Program-made: the position numbers and the translations under genes | Part shown: positions 8,163 to 17,773 of the stretch, one piece after another | Position numbering within the stretch: position 1 is the stretch's first letter | How the letters are laid out: each line of letters opens with the position of its first letter | Notes under the pieces: model-generated | What the model saw: the letters and a program-made list of their open reading frames with translations, nothing else | The model's database searches: none | Told to the model about the DNA's origin: nothing | Origin: an uncultured Acidimicrobiia bacterium | GTDB lineage: Bacteria; Actinomycetota; Acidimicrobiia; Acidimicrobiales; CAIXPF01 | Length of the DNA stretch: 64,000 bases | Assembly: GCA_903921205.1 (NCBI GenBank) | Contig: CAIXPF010000034.1 | Span: 1 to 64,000, forward strand | Direction of reading: 5' to 3'

Positions 8163-9476
8163 GTGGCCCATCCCCCTTCGGTCGACCGAATCGCTCGCGG
8201 CCTGCGTCGCAGCGGCCTGCCCGACCCGCTCCTGGTCGACGCGGCGCGCGCCGCCATCGCAGAGGCGGTCGAGCGTGACGGGCACGACGGGGTCGACCCC
8301 GACGCCGTGGCCGCCCGAGCGGCCGAGCTTGCCGCCGAGCAGTCCCTTCGCCTGTTGCAGCCGGTCATCAACGCCACCGGGGTGCTGCTGCACACCAACC
8401 TGGGTCGCGCCCCCGTGGCGTTCCACCACGACGCCCGCTACAGCAACGTCGAGTTCCGCCTCGACCGCGGCACCCGGGGCAGCCGTTCCGACCATGCCGG
8501 CACCCTGCTGGCCCGGGCCTGTGGCGCGGAAGCGGCCCTGGTCGTCAACAACAACGCCGCAGCGGTGCTGCTGACCCTGGCCGCGCTCGGGGGGCCGGGC
8601 CGGGCTGCGGTGGCGTCGCGGGGCGAGCTGGTCGAGATCGGAGGCGGCTTCCGCATCCCCGACGTGATGGCCGCGTCCGGCACCGAGCTGATCGAGGTCG
8701 GCACCACCAACCGGACCCGGCGGGCCGACTTCGAGCGGGCGGTGGCCGCCGCCGGCGAACGCATCGCCCTGCTGCTGAAGGTCCACCAGTCCAACTACCG
8801 CATCGTCGGCTTCACCGAGACCGTCGAGGTGTCGGACCTGACCGGGCTGGGCAAGCCGGTGGTGGCCGACACCGGGTCCGGCCTGCTCGACGCCGCCTGT
8901 CCGTGGCTGACCGACGGGCCCCCGGCGTGGTTGGCCGACGAGCCGGCGGCCCGTCAGACCCTTGCCGAGGGTGCCGACCTGGTGCTGTTCTCCGGCGACA
9001 AGCTGCTCGGTGGGCCGCAGGCGGGCATCATCGCCGGCCGGGCCGACCTCATCGCCACCATCGGACGCCACCCGCTGTACCGCGCGGTACGGTGCGGCGG
9101 GCTGGTGCTGCGGGCGCTGCAGGACCTGGCCCTCGCCTACCTCGACCGGCGCGGCGGGGACATCCCGTTCTGGCGTATGGCCACCCGGAGCGTGGAAGAA
9201 CTGGCCGACCGGGCGGCGGCGGTCGCCGCGGCCGTCGGTGCCGCCCGGCCCGAGGCCATGCAGGCCGTTCCCGGTGGCGGCACCCTGCCCGGCGTCACGT
9301 TCCCCTCCTACGGGGTGGCCCTCGACGGCGATCACCGGGCCGCCCTGCGACAGCTGCAACCGCCGGTCATCGCCCGGGTGGAGGACGACCGCACGCTGTG
9401 CGACCTGCGCACCGTCGACCCCGCCGACGACGCACGGCTCGCCACCGCGCTCGCCGCCTTGGGCACCACCCCGTGA
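8163..9476 (+). CDS. selA: L-seryl-tRNA(Sec) selenium transferase
   Basis: 437 aa; INATGVLLHTNLGRAPV, VVNNNAAAVLLTLAAL, SRGELVEIGGGFRIPDVMAASGTELIEVGTTNRT, FSGDKLLGGPQAGIIAGR. Confidence 0.93.
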   Translation: MAHPPSVDRIARGLRRSGLPDPLLVDAARAAIAEAVERDGHDGVDPDAVAARAAELAAEQSLRLLQPVINATGVLLHTNLGRAPVAFHHDARYSNVEFRLDRGTRGSRSDHAGTLLARACGAEAALVVNNNAAAVLLTLAALGGPGRAAVASRGELVEIGGGFRIPDVMAASGTELIEVGTTNRTRRADFERAVAAAGERIALLLKVHQSNYRIVGFTETVEVSDLTGLGKPVVADTGSGLLDAACPWLTDGPPAWLADEPAARQTLAEGADLVLFSGDKLLGGPQAGIIAGRADLIATIGRHPLYRAVRCGGLVLRALQDLALAYLDRRGGDIPFWRMATRSVEELADRAAAVAAAVGAARPEAMQAVPGGGTLPGVTFPSYGVALDGDHRAALRQLQPPVIARVEDDRTLCDLRTVDPADDARLATALAALGTTP

Positions 9477-10839: not shown

Positions 10840-12555
10840 ATGCATGTGATCGCCACCGCCGGCCACGTCGACCATGGCAAGTCGACCCTCGTTCGGGCCC
10901 TCACCGGGGTCGACCCGGACCGCTGGGAGGAGGAGAAGCAGCGCGGGATGACCATCGACCTCGGCTTCGGGGCCACCACCCAGCCGTCGGGCCGTGAGCT
11001 GGCCTTCGTCGACGTCCCCGGCCACGTGCGGTTCATCAAGAACATGCTGGCCGGCGTGGGGGCGGTCGACGCCTGCCTGTTCGTGGTGGCCGCCACCGAG
11101 GGCTGGAAACCGCAGTCCGAGGAGCACCTGCGCATCCTCGAGCTGCTCGGCCTGTCCCACGGGATCGTCGCGCTGACCAAGGTCGGCTTGTGCGACGCGG
11201 ACCTCGTCGAGCTGGCTCGCCTCGACCTCGCCGAGCACCTCGAGGGCACCTTCCTCGAGAACGCCGAGGTCGTCGAGGTCGACGTACCGACCGGAGTCGG
11301 CGTGCAGGCCCTGCGTGAGGCCCTCGACCGGCTGGCCGCCACCACGCCACGGGCCGCCGACGAAGGCCGTCCCCGGCTGTGGGTGGACCGGGCCTTCGCG
11401 GCGAAGGGCTCCGGCACCGTCGTCACCGGCACCCTCACCGGCGGCGAGCTGCGCGTCGACGACGAGCTGCAGCTGTTCCCCGGCGATGCCACCGTGCGGG
11501 TACGGGCCCTGCAGAGCCACCACCGGACCCGGCCCATGGCACAGCCCGGCTCCCGCGTGGCGGTCAACCTCGTCGGCGTGGCCCACACCGAGGTCGAGCG
11601 CGGCGACGTCCTGGTGCGCGCCGCACAGTGGCACCGCACCCGCATGGCGGACGCCTCCCTCACCGTGCTCGCCGGCCTCGACCACGAGGTGTCACGGCGC
11701 GGCGCCTACGTGGCCTACCTCGGCTCCGGCGAGGTGCCGGTCAAGGTCCGCGTGCTCGGTGACCGGGCCCTCGCCCCGGGTGAGGAGGGCCTGATCCGGC
11801 TCCATCTGCCGCAGCTGCTGCCGATGCGTCCGGGCGACCGGTTCGTGCTGCGCGAGTCCGGTCGCAAGGAAACCGTCGGCGGCGGGCAGATCCTCGACGT
11901 GGCCCCGGTCCTGCCCGCCTCCAAGGCCCGGCCCGACCGTTCCGTCGACCGGGTCGTCCGCGAGCGCGGCTACGTCGAGGCGGCAGAACTCGAGCGGCTG
12001 ACCGGACAGCGACGCGAGCCCAACCTGGGACCGTGGGTGATGGACCCCGACCGTCTGGCTGCGCTGCGCACGGAGGTCGAGCAGCTCGTGGCGGCCGCCG
12101 GACCGCTCGGCCTCGACGTCGTCTCGCTCGACGAACGCCAGCGCGCTGCGTTGGCCACGATCGACGGCATCCGGATCGAAGCCGGGCGGGTGACCGCGGC
12201 AGAGGCGGTCGACCCACTGGCCGACCATCCCTACGTCGCGGCGCTCGACGCCGCCCCGTTCGCACCGCCGCCGCCCGACGGGGTCGACCGGGCCGAGCTG
12301 CGCGAGCTGGTACGCCGGGGGCTGGTGGTGTCCCACGAGGGCGTCTACTTCTCGGCCGGCGCCCTCGATGCTGCGGCGCTCGAGGTGGCGGGCCTGCTGC
12401 GTGCCAAGCCCGACGGGGTCACCGTGGCAGAGGTGCGCGACGCCCTGGGTTGCTCACGGAAGCACACCCTGCCGCTGCTGTCCCTGCTCGACGGGAAGGG
12501 GATCACCCGTCGACGCGGCGACGTGCGGATCGGTGGACCACGCCTGCCGGAGTAG
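10840..12555 (+). CDS. selB: Selenocysteine-specific translation elongation factor
   Basis: 571 aa; MHVIATAGHVDHGKSTLVRALTGVDPDRWEEEKQRGMTIDLGFG, FVDVPGHVRFIKNMLAGVG; C-terminal winged-helix domains. Confidence 0.95.
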   Translation: MHVIATAGHVDHGKSTLVRALTGVDPDRWEEEKQRGMTIDLGFGATTQPSGRELAFVDVPGHVRFIKNMLAGVGAVDACLFVVAATEGWKPQSEEHLRILELLGLSHGIVALTKVGLCDADLVELARLDLAEHLEGTFLENAEVVEVDVPTGVGVQALREALDRLAATTPRAADEGRPRLWVDRAFAAKGSGTVVTGTLTGGELRVDDELQLFPGDATVRVRALQSHHRTRPMAQPGSRVAVNLVGVAHTEVERGDVLVRAAQWHRTRMADASLTVLAGLDHEVSRRGAYVAYLGSGEVPVKVRVLGDRALAPGEEGLIRLHLPQLLPMRPGDRFVLRESGRKETVGGGQILDVAPVLPASKARPDRSVDRVVRERGYVEAAELERLTGQRREPNLGPWVMDPDRLAALRTEVEQLVAAAGPLGLDVVSLDERQRAALATIDGIRIEAGRVTAAEAVDPLADHPYVAALDAAPFAPPPPDGVDRAELRELVRRGLVVSHEGVYFSAGALDAAALEVAGLLRAKPDGVTVAEVRDALGCSRKHTLPLLSLLDGKGITRRRGDVRIGGPRLPE

Positions 12556-12665: not shown

Positions 12666-12935
12666 TCAGCTGGCCTCGCGCTGCAGGAGGACCTGCTTGC
12701 GCTCGTTCTCGTTCAACCCACCCCAGATGCCGTGCGGTTCACGGATCGTCAGGGCGTAGTCGAGGCAGTCGCGACGCACGGCGCAGCTGCGGCAGATGCT
12801 CTTGGCGAGCGTCTCCCGTTCGATCTTCTCGTGCTTGCGCTCGAAGCGTTGCGGCGGGAAGAACACCACTGCGTTCTGCGGACCCCGACAGGCAGCTTTG
12901 ATCTGCCAGTCCTCTTCATACCGTTGTGCACTCAC
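12666..12935 (-). CDS. WhiB family transcriptional regulator
   Basis: Four Cys (AACRGPQ...SICRSCAVRRDCLDYAL) and GIWGG turn motif; likely GTG start at 12935 (MSAQRYEEDWQIKAACRG). Confidence 0.92.
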   Translation of the reverse strand: MSAQRYEEDWQIKAACRGPQNAVVFFPPQRFERKHEKIERETLAKSICRSCAVRRDCLDYALTIREPHGIWGGLNENERKQVLLQREAS

Positions 12936-13070
12936 GCGTTCCCCCTTGCCGAGCGTGAATCCCCGGGTTCCGGCGCTCCCCCTGCCGGTCCCCACGGGCA
13001 ACATACCCGCACCTCACGAAACGTCACAAGGCAACGTTTGTGAGCATCTGCTTGCCGAAGCAAGCGAACG

Positions 13071-14345
13071 CTAGTCCGTGACCGGCGACACTTCCAGCAC
13101 GTACCCACGAGTGGCGACGACCGTGACCCGGTCGCCCACCTGGAGTGGTTCACCGACCGCATGAGCCGGCCATTGAGCCGAGCGGACCGCCACGGCGCCC
13201 GAGGGGGCCAGCTCGGCGGTGACGGTACCCTCCTCCCCGACGAGCCACTCGCGACCGAGGTCGATGGCCGAGAATCGTGTGCGCACCATCGCCGGCATGC
13301 CCCGCAGGTACACCAGCAGCAGTAGCACCACGGCCGACACCACCGTCACCCACGACAGGCCGACGCCGTCGTAGAGCGTGAAGGTGGCGACCAGGAACAG
13401 CGCGATGGCGGCCACCGTCGCCCGCCGGGGGATGCCGGTCTGCACGTCGAGCGAGAACAGCAGGAAGCTGACCAGCAGCAGGGCCACCGCCCACCAACGC
13501 ACCGGCAGCACCGCCAGGCCGTAACAGCCGAGGACCACGAACACCGCACCGACCACCCCGGCGATACCGATCCCGGCGGTGAACAGCTCGAACACGATGA
13601 GGCCCACCCCGATCACGAACAGCAGGTAGGCCACCGACGGACTGGCCACGGTGTGCATCAGCTCGTCGTGCAGCGGCAACTGCACGAACCGGACCGTCGT
13701 CGCCGGCTCGCGACGCGTCTCACCGTCGACCTCGATCGACTTGGTCGCCACCCCCTCGAGGTTGATGATGAAGTCGCCCAGCGTGGCGGCGGGCACGAGC
13801 CCGGCCGACTCGGCGTCGTCGAAGCGGATGAACGCGTCGCGGGCCCGGTTGGCCGCGGCTCCGAAGAGGACCCCGACCTCGTCACGGGGCAGCAGCTGCT
13901 CGCCGGCCTTGCCCACCTGCGCCCCCGATGCGACACCGCCGGGCTGTGACAGCGCCACCAGCTGCGCCGACGCACCCTGCGCCTGTGCGCTCGAGGGGCC
14001 GACCCAGACCGCCACCGGCACCGCCGAGCTGCGGATCATCCGGGCCAACTCCACGAAGTCCTCGGCCGGCACCACCGACCCGCTGCTGTTGAGACGCAGC
14101 ACCAGTGCCACCAGACCCCGCTCGTTGGCGGCCACGATCCGAGACTCCACGAAGTCCACCAGGATCGGGTCGAACAGGCCGCTGACCTCGACCACCTCGA
14201 CCACCTGGGTGGTACCCGGCGGCTGGTCGAGCGGGGCCGAAGCAGGATCGGCCGCTCCTGCAGCGGAGATCGAGCCGACCAGGCTCAACACCAGCGCGGC
14301 CAGGACAGCCAGCAGGCCCAGGATCGAGAGTCGGTGTCGTCGCAC
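13071..14345 (-). CDS. NfeD family membrane protein (ClpP-class serine protease-like domain plus NfeD domain)
   Basis: Signal/TM N-terminus; VSGLFDPILVDFVESRIVAANERGLVALVLRLNSSGSVV; multi-TM segment; C-terminal OB-fold GEEGTVTAELAPSGAVAV. Confidence 0.82.
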   Translation of the reverse strand: MRRHRLSILGLLAVLAALVLSLVGSISAAGAADPASAPLDQPPGTTQVVEVVEVSGLFDPILVDFVESRIVAANERGLVALVLRLNSSGSVVPAEDFVELARMIRSSAVPVAVWVGPSSAQAQGASAQLVALSQPGGVASGAQVGKAGEQLLPRDEVGVLFGAAANRARDAFIRFDDAESAGLVPAATLGDFIINLEGVATKSIEVDGETRREPATTVRFVQLPLHDELMHTVASPSVAYLLFVIGVGLIVFELFTAGIGIAGVVGAVFVVLGCYGLAVLPVRWWAVALLLVSFLLFSLDVQTGIPRRATVAAIALFLVATFTLYDGVGLSWVTVVSAVVLLLLVYLRGMPAMVRTRFSAIDLGREWLVGEEGTVTAELAPSGAVAVRSAQWPAHAVGEPLQVGDRVTVVATRGYVLEVSPVTD

Positions 14346-14506: not shown

Positions 14507-15472
14507 ATGGACCCATCGGCATTCTTCACCGGCACCGCGGTACACCTCGTCGCCGGCAAGGGCGGGGTGGGCCGGACCACCCTCACCGCTGCGCTGGGGA
14601 TCGCGGCCGCCCGGGTCGGCCTCGAGGTGCTACTGGTCGAGATCGAGGGTCGGGGCGGGCTCGCCGCCGGCTTCGGCCATCGGGCGCTCGGTTACGAGGA
14701 GACCGTGCTGGCCGAACGCATCCGGGGCCGCTCGCTGCGGGCCGAGGACTGTCTCGTGGAGTACCTGGGTGGGCACGGCCTGGGCCTGCTCACCCGTCCG
14801 ATGGTCGACAGCGGGCTGGTGGAGGTCATCACCCGCGGCACGCCGGGCATCAAGGACATCCTGCTGTTGGGCAAGATCCGCCAACTCGAACAGGCGCGCT
14901 GCGCCGACGTGATCCTGGTCGACACCCCTGCCTCGGGCCATGCCCTGAGCTTCCTGCGTTCGCCACAGGGCCTGCTCGACGCCATCGACAACGGCCCCGT
15001 CAACGACCAGGCCGTCGCCGCGCTGCACCTTCTGCAGGACGCCGCCCGTTGCCAGGTCCTGCTGGTCACCACGCCGGAGGAGACCCCGGTCAGCGAGACC
15101 ATCGAGACCGCGTACCGGCTCGAGGACGAGATCGGCCTGCATCTCGGGCCGGTGCTGGTCAACGGCGTGCTGGCCCGGACCCCGCACCGCGACACCGACA
15201 CCGGGCACTCGAACCCGGACGACCCCGATCCCGACGACCCGGACGCAGAGGGCCGGTGGGTCCGCGAGCTGGGCATCGACCGCGATCTGGCGCACGCGGT
15301 CCAGCAGGCGGCCGTGTTCGGCCGACGCCGCCGCGACGCCCAGCGCAGACAGGTGCTACGCCTCACCGAACAACTACCGCTGCCCCGTCTCGAGGTGGCC
15401 CATCGCCCCGACGGCATCGACGACCTCGGCGCGCTCGCCGAGGAACTGCTCGGCGGGCTGCGGGCATGGTGA
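14507..15472 (+). CDS. ArsA/Get3-like ATPase (first of tandem pair, degenerate Walker A)
   Basis: MDPSAFFTGTAVHLVAGKGGVGRTTLTAALGIAAA; VILVDTPASGHALSFL; VLLVTTPEETPVSETIETA. Confidence 0.85.
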   Translation: MDPSAFFTGTAVHLVAGKGGVGRTTLTAALGIAAARVGLEVLLVEIEGRGGLAAGFGHRALGYEETVLAERIRGRSLRAEDCLVEYLGGHGLGLLTRPMVDSGLVEVITRGTPGIKDILLLGKIRQLEQARCADVILVDTPASGHALSFLRSPQGLLDAIDNGPVNDQAVAALHLLQDAARCQVLLVTTPEETPVSETIETAYRLEDEIGLHLGPVLVNGVLARTPHRDTDTGHSNPDDPDPDDPDAEGRWVRELGIDRDLAHAVQQAAVFGRRRRDAQRRQVLRLTEQLPLPRLEVAHRPDGIDDLGALAEELLGGLRAW

Positions 15473-16668
15473 ACGAACGCTCGGGGCGCGCCGCCCTCGC
15501 CGAGCTCGTGACGAGCCGCTCGGTGCTGGTGTGCGTGGGATCCGGTGGGGTCGGCAAGACGTCGATGGCGGCCGCACTGGCCCTTGAGGCGGCCCGGCGC
15601 GGCCGCCGCACCATCGTGGTCACCATCGACCCGGCTCGGCGTCTCGCCGACGCCCTCGGACTGGAGCGGCTCGGCGGCGAACCGCTGCCGATCACGGAGC
15701 TGATCGCGGCGTCGTCCGGGCTGCGATCCGGCTCGTCACCCACCGGCAGCCTGCACGCCCTGATGCTCGACGCCAAGGCAACCTTCGACGACCTGGTGAC
15801 CCGCCACGCCACCGACCGGGCCCAGGCCGAGCGCATCCTTGCCAACCGCTTCTACCACAGCATCTCCACCACGCTGTCCGGCACCCAGGAGTACATGGCC
15901 GCCGAGAAGCTCGGTGAGCTGCACACCTCCGGAAGGTTCGATCTGATCGTGGTGGACACCCCACCGACCCGGCAGGCGCTGGACTTCCTCGACGCACCCG
16001 GGCAGCTCGCCCGGTTCCTCGACCACCCGGCCTACCGGCTGATGACCGGGTCCGGCAGTGCCGTCAGCCGCGTCGCCGGGGCGGCCGGAAAGCGCCTGCT
16101 GCGTGCCGCCGCCCGGCTGGTGGGCTCGGTCGCGCTCGACGACGCCGTCGAGTTCTTCCGGGCCTTCGAGGGCCTCGAAGCGGGCTTCCTGACGCGGGCC
16201 CTCGCCGTCCGGGATCTGCTGGTGTCGGCGCAGACCGGCTTCGTGGTGGTGACCTCCGCCCGGCCCGAACCGATCGCCGAGGCCGGATACTTCCTCGACC
16301 GGCTCGCCGCCCAGGACATCCCCGTGGATGCCATCGTCGCCAACCGGATGACCCCCCGTTTCACCCGGCTGACCGCTGCCGAACTCAGGCGCATCGCAGC
16401 CGCACAGGACGCCGGCGGCGATCAGGTCCTGCGCACCGGACTCGCAGAGCTGATCGAGCTGACCGCCGCAGCCGAGGCGGAGGAGCGTGCGCTGGCCCCG
16501 CTGCACACGGGCCGCGCCATCCCGTTCCAGCAGGGCCCGTTCCAGCAGGGCCCGTTCCAGCAGGTCCCGTTCCAGCAGGTCCCGTTCCAGCAGGTCCCGT
16601 TGCTCGACCACGACGTCCACGACCTCGGCGGGCTCGAACAGCTCCGGCAGTCGGCCTTCGACGACTGA
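15466..16668 (+). CDS. ArsA/Get3-like ATPase (second of tandem pair)
   Basis: SVLVCVGSGGVGKTSMAAALALEAARRGRRTIVVTIDPARRLADALGL; FDLIVVDTPPTRQALDFLDAPGQL; 7-nt overlap with the preceding gene. Confidence 0.88.
   Translation: MVNERSGRAALAELVTSRSVLVCVGSGGVGKTSMAAALALEAARRGRRTIVVTIDPARRLADALGLERLGGEPLPITELIAASSGLRSGSSPTGSLHALMLDAKATFDDLVTRHATDRAQAERILANRFYHSISTTLSGTQEYMAAEKLGELHTSGRFDLIVVDTPPTRQALDFLDAPGQLARFLDHPAYRLMTGSGSAVSRVAGAAGKRLLRAAARLVGSVALDDAVEFFRAFEGLEAGFLTRALAVRDLLVSAQTGFVVVTSARPEPIAEAGYFLDRLAAQDIPVDAIVANRMTPRFTRLTAAELRRIAAAQDAGGDQVLRTGLAELIELTAAAEAEERALAPLHTGRAIPFQQGPFQQGPFQQVPFQQVPFQQVPLLDHDVHDLGGLEQLRQSAFDD
16521..16601 (+). repeat. In-frame 15-bp minisatellite, 5 copies, encoding PFQQ(G/V)
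   Basis: cccgttccagcaggg x2 then cccgttccagcaggt x3, then cccgttg; peptide PFQQGPFQQGPFQQVPFQQVPFQQVP. Confidence 0.95.
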
Positions 16669-16738: not shown

Positions 16739-17083
16739 TCAGCGCGACGGTGGACCGAGGGCGTCGAGCGCGTCCTCGACGCTGTCTGCGACGGCCACGA
16801 TGCGATCGAGACCGGTCGTGTGCAGCAGGCGGCTGATGCCGGCCCCACCACAGACGACGGCGACCTCGCCGTCGTGCTCTCTGGCCCGACGGATGCTCCC
16901 GATGAGCCCGCCGAGTCCGGCCGAGTCCATGAACGGGACCTCGGAGAGGTCGATGACCAGCCGGGCGTGACCGCTGTAGGGAGCGAGTTCCTCCCGGAAC
17001 TGCGCCACGGTGGCCGCGTCGAGCTCACCGACCGGGCGGCACACCGTGTGGGTAGCCGCCTGCTCCATCCGCACCTCGAGCAC
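16739..17083 (-). CDS. STAS domain protein, anti-sigma factor antagonist-like
   Basis: 114 aa; VGELDAATVAQFREELAPYSGHARLVIDLSEVPFMDSAGLGGLIGSIRRAREHDGEVAVV, with DSAGL phosphorylation-site motif. Confidence 0.9.
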   Translation of the reverse strand: MLEVRMEQAATHTVCRPVGELDAATVAQFREELAPYSGHARLVIDLSEVPFMDSAGLGGLIGSIRRAREHDGEVAVVCGGAGISRLLHTTGLDRIVAVADSVEDALDALGPPSR

Positions 17084-17268
17084 GGGCACTCCCTTCCGAG
17101 CTCCACCGGCCTGCCGGCACGAGGGCCGACCCGGTGCGCGCCAGCCTAGGGAGCTGCGTCCGGCCAGGTTGCCCGGACCGGGGCCGAGCGCCCCTTCCGC
17201 CACGGCACCGTCGCGGGCCGGACGCTGCCGTGGCTGTCGACGGGTCGAGCCGCTAGCCTGCATCGTCG

Positions 17269-17673
17269 ATGGACTGCGTACTGATCGCCACCGACGCCGA
17301 CTGGCTGTTCGACGAGGTCGACGCCGCCCTCGCCGACGACAACCGGGCGGTGTACCGGGTCCGGGCCGGCCGCATGGTGTTGCCGGCCGTTCAGGAGCTG
17401 AACCCCGACCTCGTCATCCTCGACCTGCAGATCGGCAACCTGGGCGGCGTCGCCACCTCCCTGGCACTGCGCCAGGAGCAGGACATGGGCCGCCTTCCCG
17501 AGCAGCGCATCATCATGCTGCTCGACCGACAGGCCGACGTGTTCATGGCGCAGATGGCCCGGGCCGATGGCTGGCTGGTGAAACCGGTCAACAGCGTCCG
17601 GCTTCGACGGGCCGCAAACGCCGTTCTCGCCGGGGAAGGACACTTCGAAGGGATGCTCGAAGCCACGAGCTGA
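17269..17673 (+). CDS. Stand-alone response regulator receiver domain protein
   Basis: 134 aa; PDLVILDLQIGNLGG phosphoacceptor-type motif; GWLVKPVNSVRLRRA (conserved KP). Confidence 0.75.
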   Translation: MDCVLIATDADWLFDEVDAALADDNRAVYRVRAGRMVLPAVQELNPDLVILDLQIGNLGGVATSLALRQEQDMGRLPEQRIIMLLDRQADVFMAQMARADGWLVKPVNSVRLRRAANAVLAGEGHFEGMLEATS

Positions 17674-17693: not shown

Positions 17694-17767
17694 CGGGTGG
17701 TGGCGCAGTTTGGCAGCGCGCTGCGTTCGGGACGCAGAGGCCGGGAGTTCAAATCTCCCCCACCCGA
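17694..17767 (+). tRNA. tRNA-Pro (anticodon CGG)
   Basis: Cloverleaf: acceptor CGGGTGG/CCACCCG, D-arm GCGC-AGTTTGGCA-GCGC, anticodon stem CTGCG-TTCGGGA-CGCAG, T-arm GGGAG-TTCAAAT-CTCCC; CCA not encoded. Confidence 0.93.
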
Positions 17768-17773
17768 CCCCAA

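Follow-up and report, generated by a model that had tools for sequence, protein, structure and literature searches.

A diverged BagA-BagB pair from an uncultured Acidimicrobiia bacterium, a putative Get3/ArsA-class heterodimer predicted to hydrolyse ATP at one composite site

BagA and BagB of Mycobacterium (Rv3679/Rv3680; MSMEG_6193/6195) are the closest described relatives of the gene pair reported here. The M. tuberculosis proteins have been co-crystallised and form chains A and B of PDB entries 6bs3, 6bs4 and 6bs5. In the alignments of these PDB matches, M. tuberculosis BagA reads GKGGTGKST in its Walker A motif and contains VEVEGR, while BagB reads GAGGVGKTT and contains TIDPA. M. tuberculosis BagA thus has EGR and BagB lacks the signature lysine, and both are therefore family traits. 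In mycobacteria, tolerance of glycerol and of nitric oxide has been linked to bagAB, and insertions in bagAB have been linked to tolerance of citrate and to streptomycin survival (PMC10597346, PMC12216072). In the searchable literature, a scope that excludes the main structural paper, no statement was found on asymmetry between the two BagAB sites.

The mechanism of the class has been described for Get3. Its signature lysine crosses to the active site of the partner subunit and helps catalysis there, its P-loop lysine points to the beta-phosphate within its own monomer, and its switch-I aspartate positions the water (PMC10248533). Departures from this pattern are documented. Cyanobacterial NosGet3d, with arginine for the P-loop lysine and glutamate for the catalytic aspartate, is still a slow ATPase (PMC10248533). 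McdA reads SGGQGKT and lacks the signature lysine, so loss of this residue need not kill a member of the class, and BcsQ is a relative without either lysine (PMC9178275).

The window analysed here is a stretch of 64,000 nucleotides from an uncultured Acidimicrobiia bacterium (contig CAIXPF010000034.1, positions 1 to 64,000), whose closest named relatives are assemblies of the Acidimicrobiia/Acidimicrobiales. The window encodes two proteins, A1 and B1, adjacent on one strand; A1 is matched best by the NCBIfam BagA profile and B1 by BagB, and in the PDB each has its top match in the corresponding chain (A for A1, B for B1) of those three entries. The pair thus belongs to the known BagA/BagB family; the first-pass annotation had named Rv3679/Rv3680 among the pairs to align it with. 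The coordinates, reading frames, Walker A motifs and 7-nt overlap were exact on re-reading. Both proteins score well under the NCBIfam cut-offs (Table 1) and are a distant, related subfamily of BagA/BagB, not equivalogs. Gene order and the division into two subfamilies are as in Mycobacterium, and so are the absence of the signature lysine from B and the EGR of A. A physical A-B heterodimer is seen in the crystal entries for the homologues and, by analogy, is putative for the window pair.

Table 1. Features of the BagA-BagB-type pair and its flanking genes (positions in the window)
Feature	Position	Strand	Evidence or remark
BagA-type subunit A1, 321 aa, ArsA/Get3 fold family	14507..15472	+	NCBIfam BagA 145 bits (equivalog cut-off 400); Pfam ArsA_ATPase 61 bits (cut-off 24.3); PDB 6bs3_A E=4.9e-32
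BagB-type subunit B1, 400 aa	15466..16668	+	NCBIfam BagB 315 bits (cut-off 521); Pfam ArsA_ATPase 88 bits (cut-off 24.3); PDB 6bs3_B E=3.6e-67
Overlap of ORF A and ORF B, 7 nt, ATGGTGA	15466..15472	+	
A1 Walker A, GKGGVGRTT	14555..14581	+	Lys18 at the signature position (14558-14560); Arg23 in place of the P-loop Lys (cgg, 14573-14575)
A1 Glu47, switch-I position of the catalytic Asp	14645..14647	+	E/D/A/T/G/S across BagA (column counts, trees)
A1 Asp139, switch II	14921..14923	+	Invariant in 207 BagA
A1 Asn219, adenine-recognising position	15161..15163	+	205 of 207 BagA; role of Asn from PMC10248533
B1 Walker A, GSGGVGKTS	15538..15564	+	Ser26 in place of the signature Lys (15541-15543); Lys31 at the P-loop position (15556-15558)
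B1 Asp55 of TIDPA, switch I	15628..15630	+	Invariant in 211 BagB
B1 Asp164 of VVDTPP, switch II	15955..15957	+	Invariant in 211 BagB
15-bp tandem repeat, 5.5 copies, PFQQ[GV] in frame, C-terminal part of BagB	16520..16601	+	
WhiB regulator	12669-13004	-	Flanks the pair
Long NfeD-family protein	13071-14345	-	Flanks the pair
STAS protein	16739-17149	-	Flanks the pair
Receiver-domain protein	17269-17673	+	Flanks the pair

The start of ORF A is backed by an identical MDPSAFF start in the two nearest relatives. The 15-bp tandem repeat of BagB is absent from both of these relatives; one of them (locus L042) has instead a DLDPDD-type repeat on the N-terminal side of its BagB frame. Single-chain AlphaFold2 models, made from alignments of only three sequences (the window protein and two relatives), have mean pLDDT values of 38 and 50 and are too poor to use.

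B1 carries the BagB motifs without exception: like all 211 BagB surveyed, it lacks the signature lysine, keeps the P-loop lysine and has a TxDPA switch I. A1 differs from M. tuberculosis BagA, which has both lysines, in having arginine at the P-loop position, and it shares the lack of a P-loop lysine with a minority of its family (11 of 207 BagA). The IEGR that lies downstream of GKGGVGRTT in ORF A had been regarded as a departure from IDPA. EGR or EGK is normal for BagA, however, as in the M. tuberculosis protein, and a lesion of this particular protein was rejected.

The survey drew homologues from genomes across the order and the phylum. Both genes are present at 204 of the 214 loci obtained; A and B labels were assigned by whole-length BLAST and not by motif. 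The two genes are adjacent and on the same strand at all 204 of these loci. In every pair, A has the signature lysine and one of Lys, Arg, Ser or Thr at the P-loop position, and B has the P-loop lysine and one of Ser, Ala, Pro or Thr at the signature position. The signature lysine of BagA is present in 207 of 207 proteins, as is the switch-II aspartate, and the adenine asparagine in 205. The BagA P-loop position holds Lys in 196 proteins, Arg in 6, Ser in 4 and Thr in 1. Its switch-I catalytic position is more diverse (Glu 127, Asp 63, Ala 11, Thr 3, Gly 2, Ser 1). In BagB, the signature position is Ser in 135 of 211 proteins, Ala in 34, Pro in 29, Thr in 13 and Lys in none. The P-loop lysine and threonine, each of the switch-I residues T, D, P and A, and the switch-II DTPP are found in all 211, and the adenine asparagine in 208 of 208. 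Because similarity to the window protein was one basis for choosing the sample, the 5% of BagA without the P-loop lysine is not an unbiased figure; the zeros are the robust part of the survey.

Minimum numbers of changes were counted on FastTree trees built with the scored columns masked. BagA required no change at the signature lysine, 6 at the P-loop lysine and 22 at the catalytic-aspartate position. BagB required 50 at the signature position, all among S, A, P and T and never to Lys, and none at the P-loop lysine, the threonine, the switch-I T, D, P and A or the switch-II D, T and P. The P-loop lysine of BagA thus appears to have been lost sporadically, in about six independent changes. In all 11 pairs in which BagA lacks it, the partner BagB keeps its P-loop and switch motifs intact, and the BagA itself retains the switch-II aspartate in all 11 cases and the adenine asparagine in 10. 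A separate BagA lineage (L092, L102, L177, L181) reads GKGGVGSST, with Ser for the P-loop lysine, and has switch I SVDG[RK]PG and Pro at the B signature position.

These patterns point to a BagA-BagB heterodimer of the Get3/ArsA class (SIMIBI, intradimeric Walker A) with one hydrolysis-competent composite site, a reading to which a probability of roughly 0.7 is given. The composite site would be the BagB pocket, with P-loop Lys31, Thr32, switch-I Asp55 and switch-II Asp164 supplied by B. The signature Lys18 of BagA would be inserted across the interface into this site, as the Get3 mechanism suggests. The BagA pocket would receive no signature lysine in return, as BagB has Ser, Ala, Pro or Thr there in every homologue surveyed, and it is therefore probably catalytically degenerate across the family. 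Its catalytic aspartate drifts, and in a few lineages, the window's included, its P-loop lysine is also gone. Since the adenine asparagine and switch-II aspartate are kept in A, the pocket probably still holds nucleotide, without turnover, for structural or regulatory reasons. A degenerate A site need not be dead, by analogy with the ATPase NosGet3d and with McdA, which lacks the signature lysine. The A site may bind ATP well in most BagA, which have the P-loop lysine.

This arrangement changes how the two substitutions are understood. The first-pass annotation had presented them as complementary, each subunit lacking the lysine that the other keeps, and as matching lesions that mark the pair. 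Neither the 211 BagB surveyed nor the M. tuberculosis protein has the signature lysine, which removes one of the two as a hallmark. If the signature lysine acts in trans, the missing lysine of B and the missing P-loop lysine of A would both damage the A site, a double hit on one site in place of a swap. This would explain why A loses its P-loop lysine repeatedly while the signature lysine of A and the P-loop lysine of B never change. The proposal of one composite or asymmetric site survives, as across the 204 pairs the signature lysine comes from A only, and the P-loop lysine and switch-I aspartate are guaranteed by B only; the obligatory swapped lesions do not. Nor is the pair of substitutions fixed as such across homologues: the A P-loop position varies, mostly Lys with some Arg, Ser or Thr, while BagB never has Lys at the signature position and its own site residues do not vary.

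The arginine of A1 is real and tolerated, and it is neither fixed nor required. A second species of the genus, whose protein is 86% identical, shares the CGG codon, and purifying selection acts on both genes (dN/dS between the window and this congener of 0.24 for A and 0.37 for B). Yet relatives have other residues: another congener has Lys (AAG) at this position, and Thr (GKGGVGTST) occurs in a different genus of the family. The DNA pattern for GKGGVGRTT with a CGN arginine occurs in 3 of 398 genomes of the order. A sequencing error was rejected on the grounds of the shared CGG codon, and a pseudogene on the grounds of purifying selection. The change from K to R arose sporadically, below genus level, and the arginine is the sole unusual residue of the pair, since Ser in B and EGR in A are the family norm. 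The comparison of the 204 pairs suggests that the arginine only degrades further an already crippled A site.

It is possible, if rather unlikely, that Arg23 stands in for the P-loop lysine, so that both sites hydrolyse ATP and the K/R exchange is near-neutral. The change is conservative, NosGet3d is active with arginine at this position, and NCBIfam holds a family of KGGVGR-motif ATPases that the window BagA matches weakly. However, the A site of BagAB lacks a signature lysine in trans in every pair, whereas Get3d has one, and other lineages have Ser or Thr at the same residue. It is more doubtful that the conservation asymmetry reflects a non-catalytic, for example structural, role of Lys18, with both sites equally slow. 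Conservation alone does not give the direction of Lys18, but the equivalent lysine of Get3 reaches across the dimer, and the cis site of B is fully conserved while that of A is not.

A and B could also, or mainly, act as separate homodimers, and relatives lacking the signature lysine (McdA) or both lysines (BcsQ) make this conceivable. It is nevertheless quite improbable: an AA dimer would have no P-loop lysine in either site and a BB dimer no signature lysine in either, and the genes are adjacent on one strand in 204 of 204 pairs, overlap here and have homologues that co-crystallise. Decay of the A1 gene, with the arginine as a first sign of pseudogenisation tolerated thanks to a second pair in the same genome whose A has both lysines, is very hard to reconcile with a dN/dS of 0.24 between the two arginine-sharing species, an intact frame and the presence of the other motifs.

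The second, diverged BagAB-like pair, A2/B2, lies on contig C10 of the same genome (L009:2672-4965); its A reads GKGGVGKTT and its B reads GAGGVGKTS. It resembles A1/B1 in its A/B arrangement and asymmetry and differs in its P-loop lysine in A, in DGAG in place of EGR and in its neighbours. When 119 genomes of the order were searched, 96 had a match to the A2 protein (E up to 1e-30; some A1 matches included), and two BagAB pairs per genome look common in this order.

The genes that flank A1/B1 recur elsewhere. Homologues of the NfeD, STAS, receiver-domain and WhiB proteins are found beside A1-type pairs, NfeD at 74 of 123 A1 loci, where flanks are short and absence means little. WhiB homologues also adjoin 16 A2-labelled pairs. 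The recurrence of an NfeD-family membrane protein with STAS, receiver and WhiB proteins is suggestive of a membrane-related role of the pair. Elsewhere in the window, a SelA-like ORF at 8163-9476 (identified by eye) and SelB at 10840-12555 (TIGR00475, 301 bits) suggest selenocysteine use, and a tRNA-Pro at 17694-17769 is the sole tRNA found in the window.

The preferred one-site reading can be extended to the whole family. It seems fairly likely that all actinobacterial BagAB are one-site Get3-like ATPases in which B is the enzyme and A, its own pocket degenerate, donates a lysine, and that repeated loss of the A P-loop lysine marks lineages in which nucleotide binding there is dispensable or static. 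A pair of motif lesions would thereby become a family-wide, testable prediction of how a Get3-like heterodimer of mycobacteria and their relatives uses ATP: at one site, built in trans. Natural BagA proteins with Arg, Ser or Thr at the P-loop offer a ready way to find out if the second site has any role.

Comparison with other members of the class places the pair apart from each. It shares the fold family, the intradimeric Walker A, switches I and II and the adenine asparagine with eukaryotic Get3/TRC40 and archaeal Get3. Those proteins are homodimers whose two sites are equal, and most have a CXXC zinc motif, whereas two equivalent complete sites are not found here, A lacking the P-loop lysine and B the signature lysine, and neither sequence contains CXXC when read through. 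The arsenite pump ATPase ArsA has the Pfam ArsA_ATPase domain and two nucleotide-binding halves in common with the pair, but it is a single fused chain with both lysines in both halves (by alignment), and the window pair is two genes. ArsA identity and arsenic transport were rejected, as the TIGR04291 scores (41 and 46 bits) fall far short of the cut-off of 650 and the genes are separate. NosGet3d resembles A1 in its P-loop arginine and in its glutamate for the catalytic aspartate, and differs in retaining a signature lysine in each chain and in having an alpha-crystallin domain. If all BagAB are one-site ATPases, they would parallel, within the Get3 class, the heterodimeric ABC transporters in which one site is degenerate.
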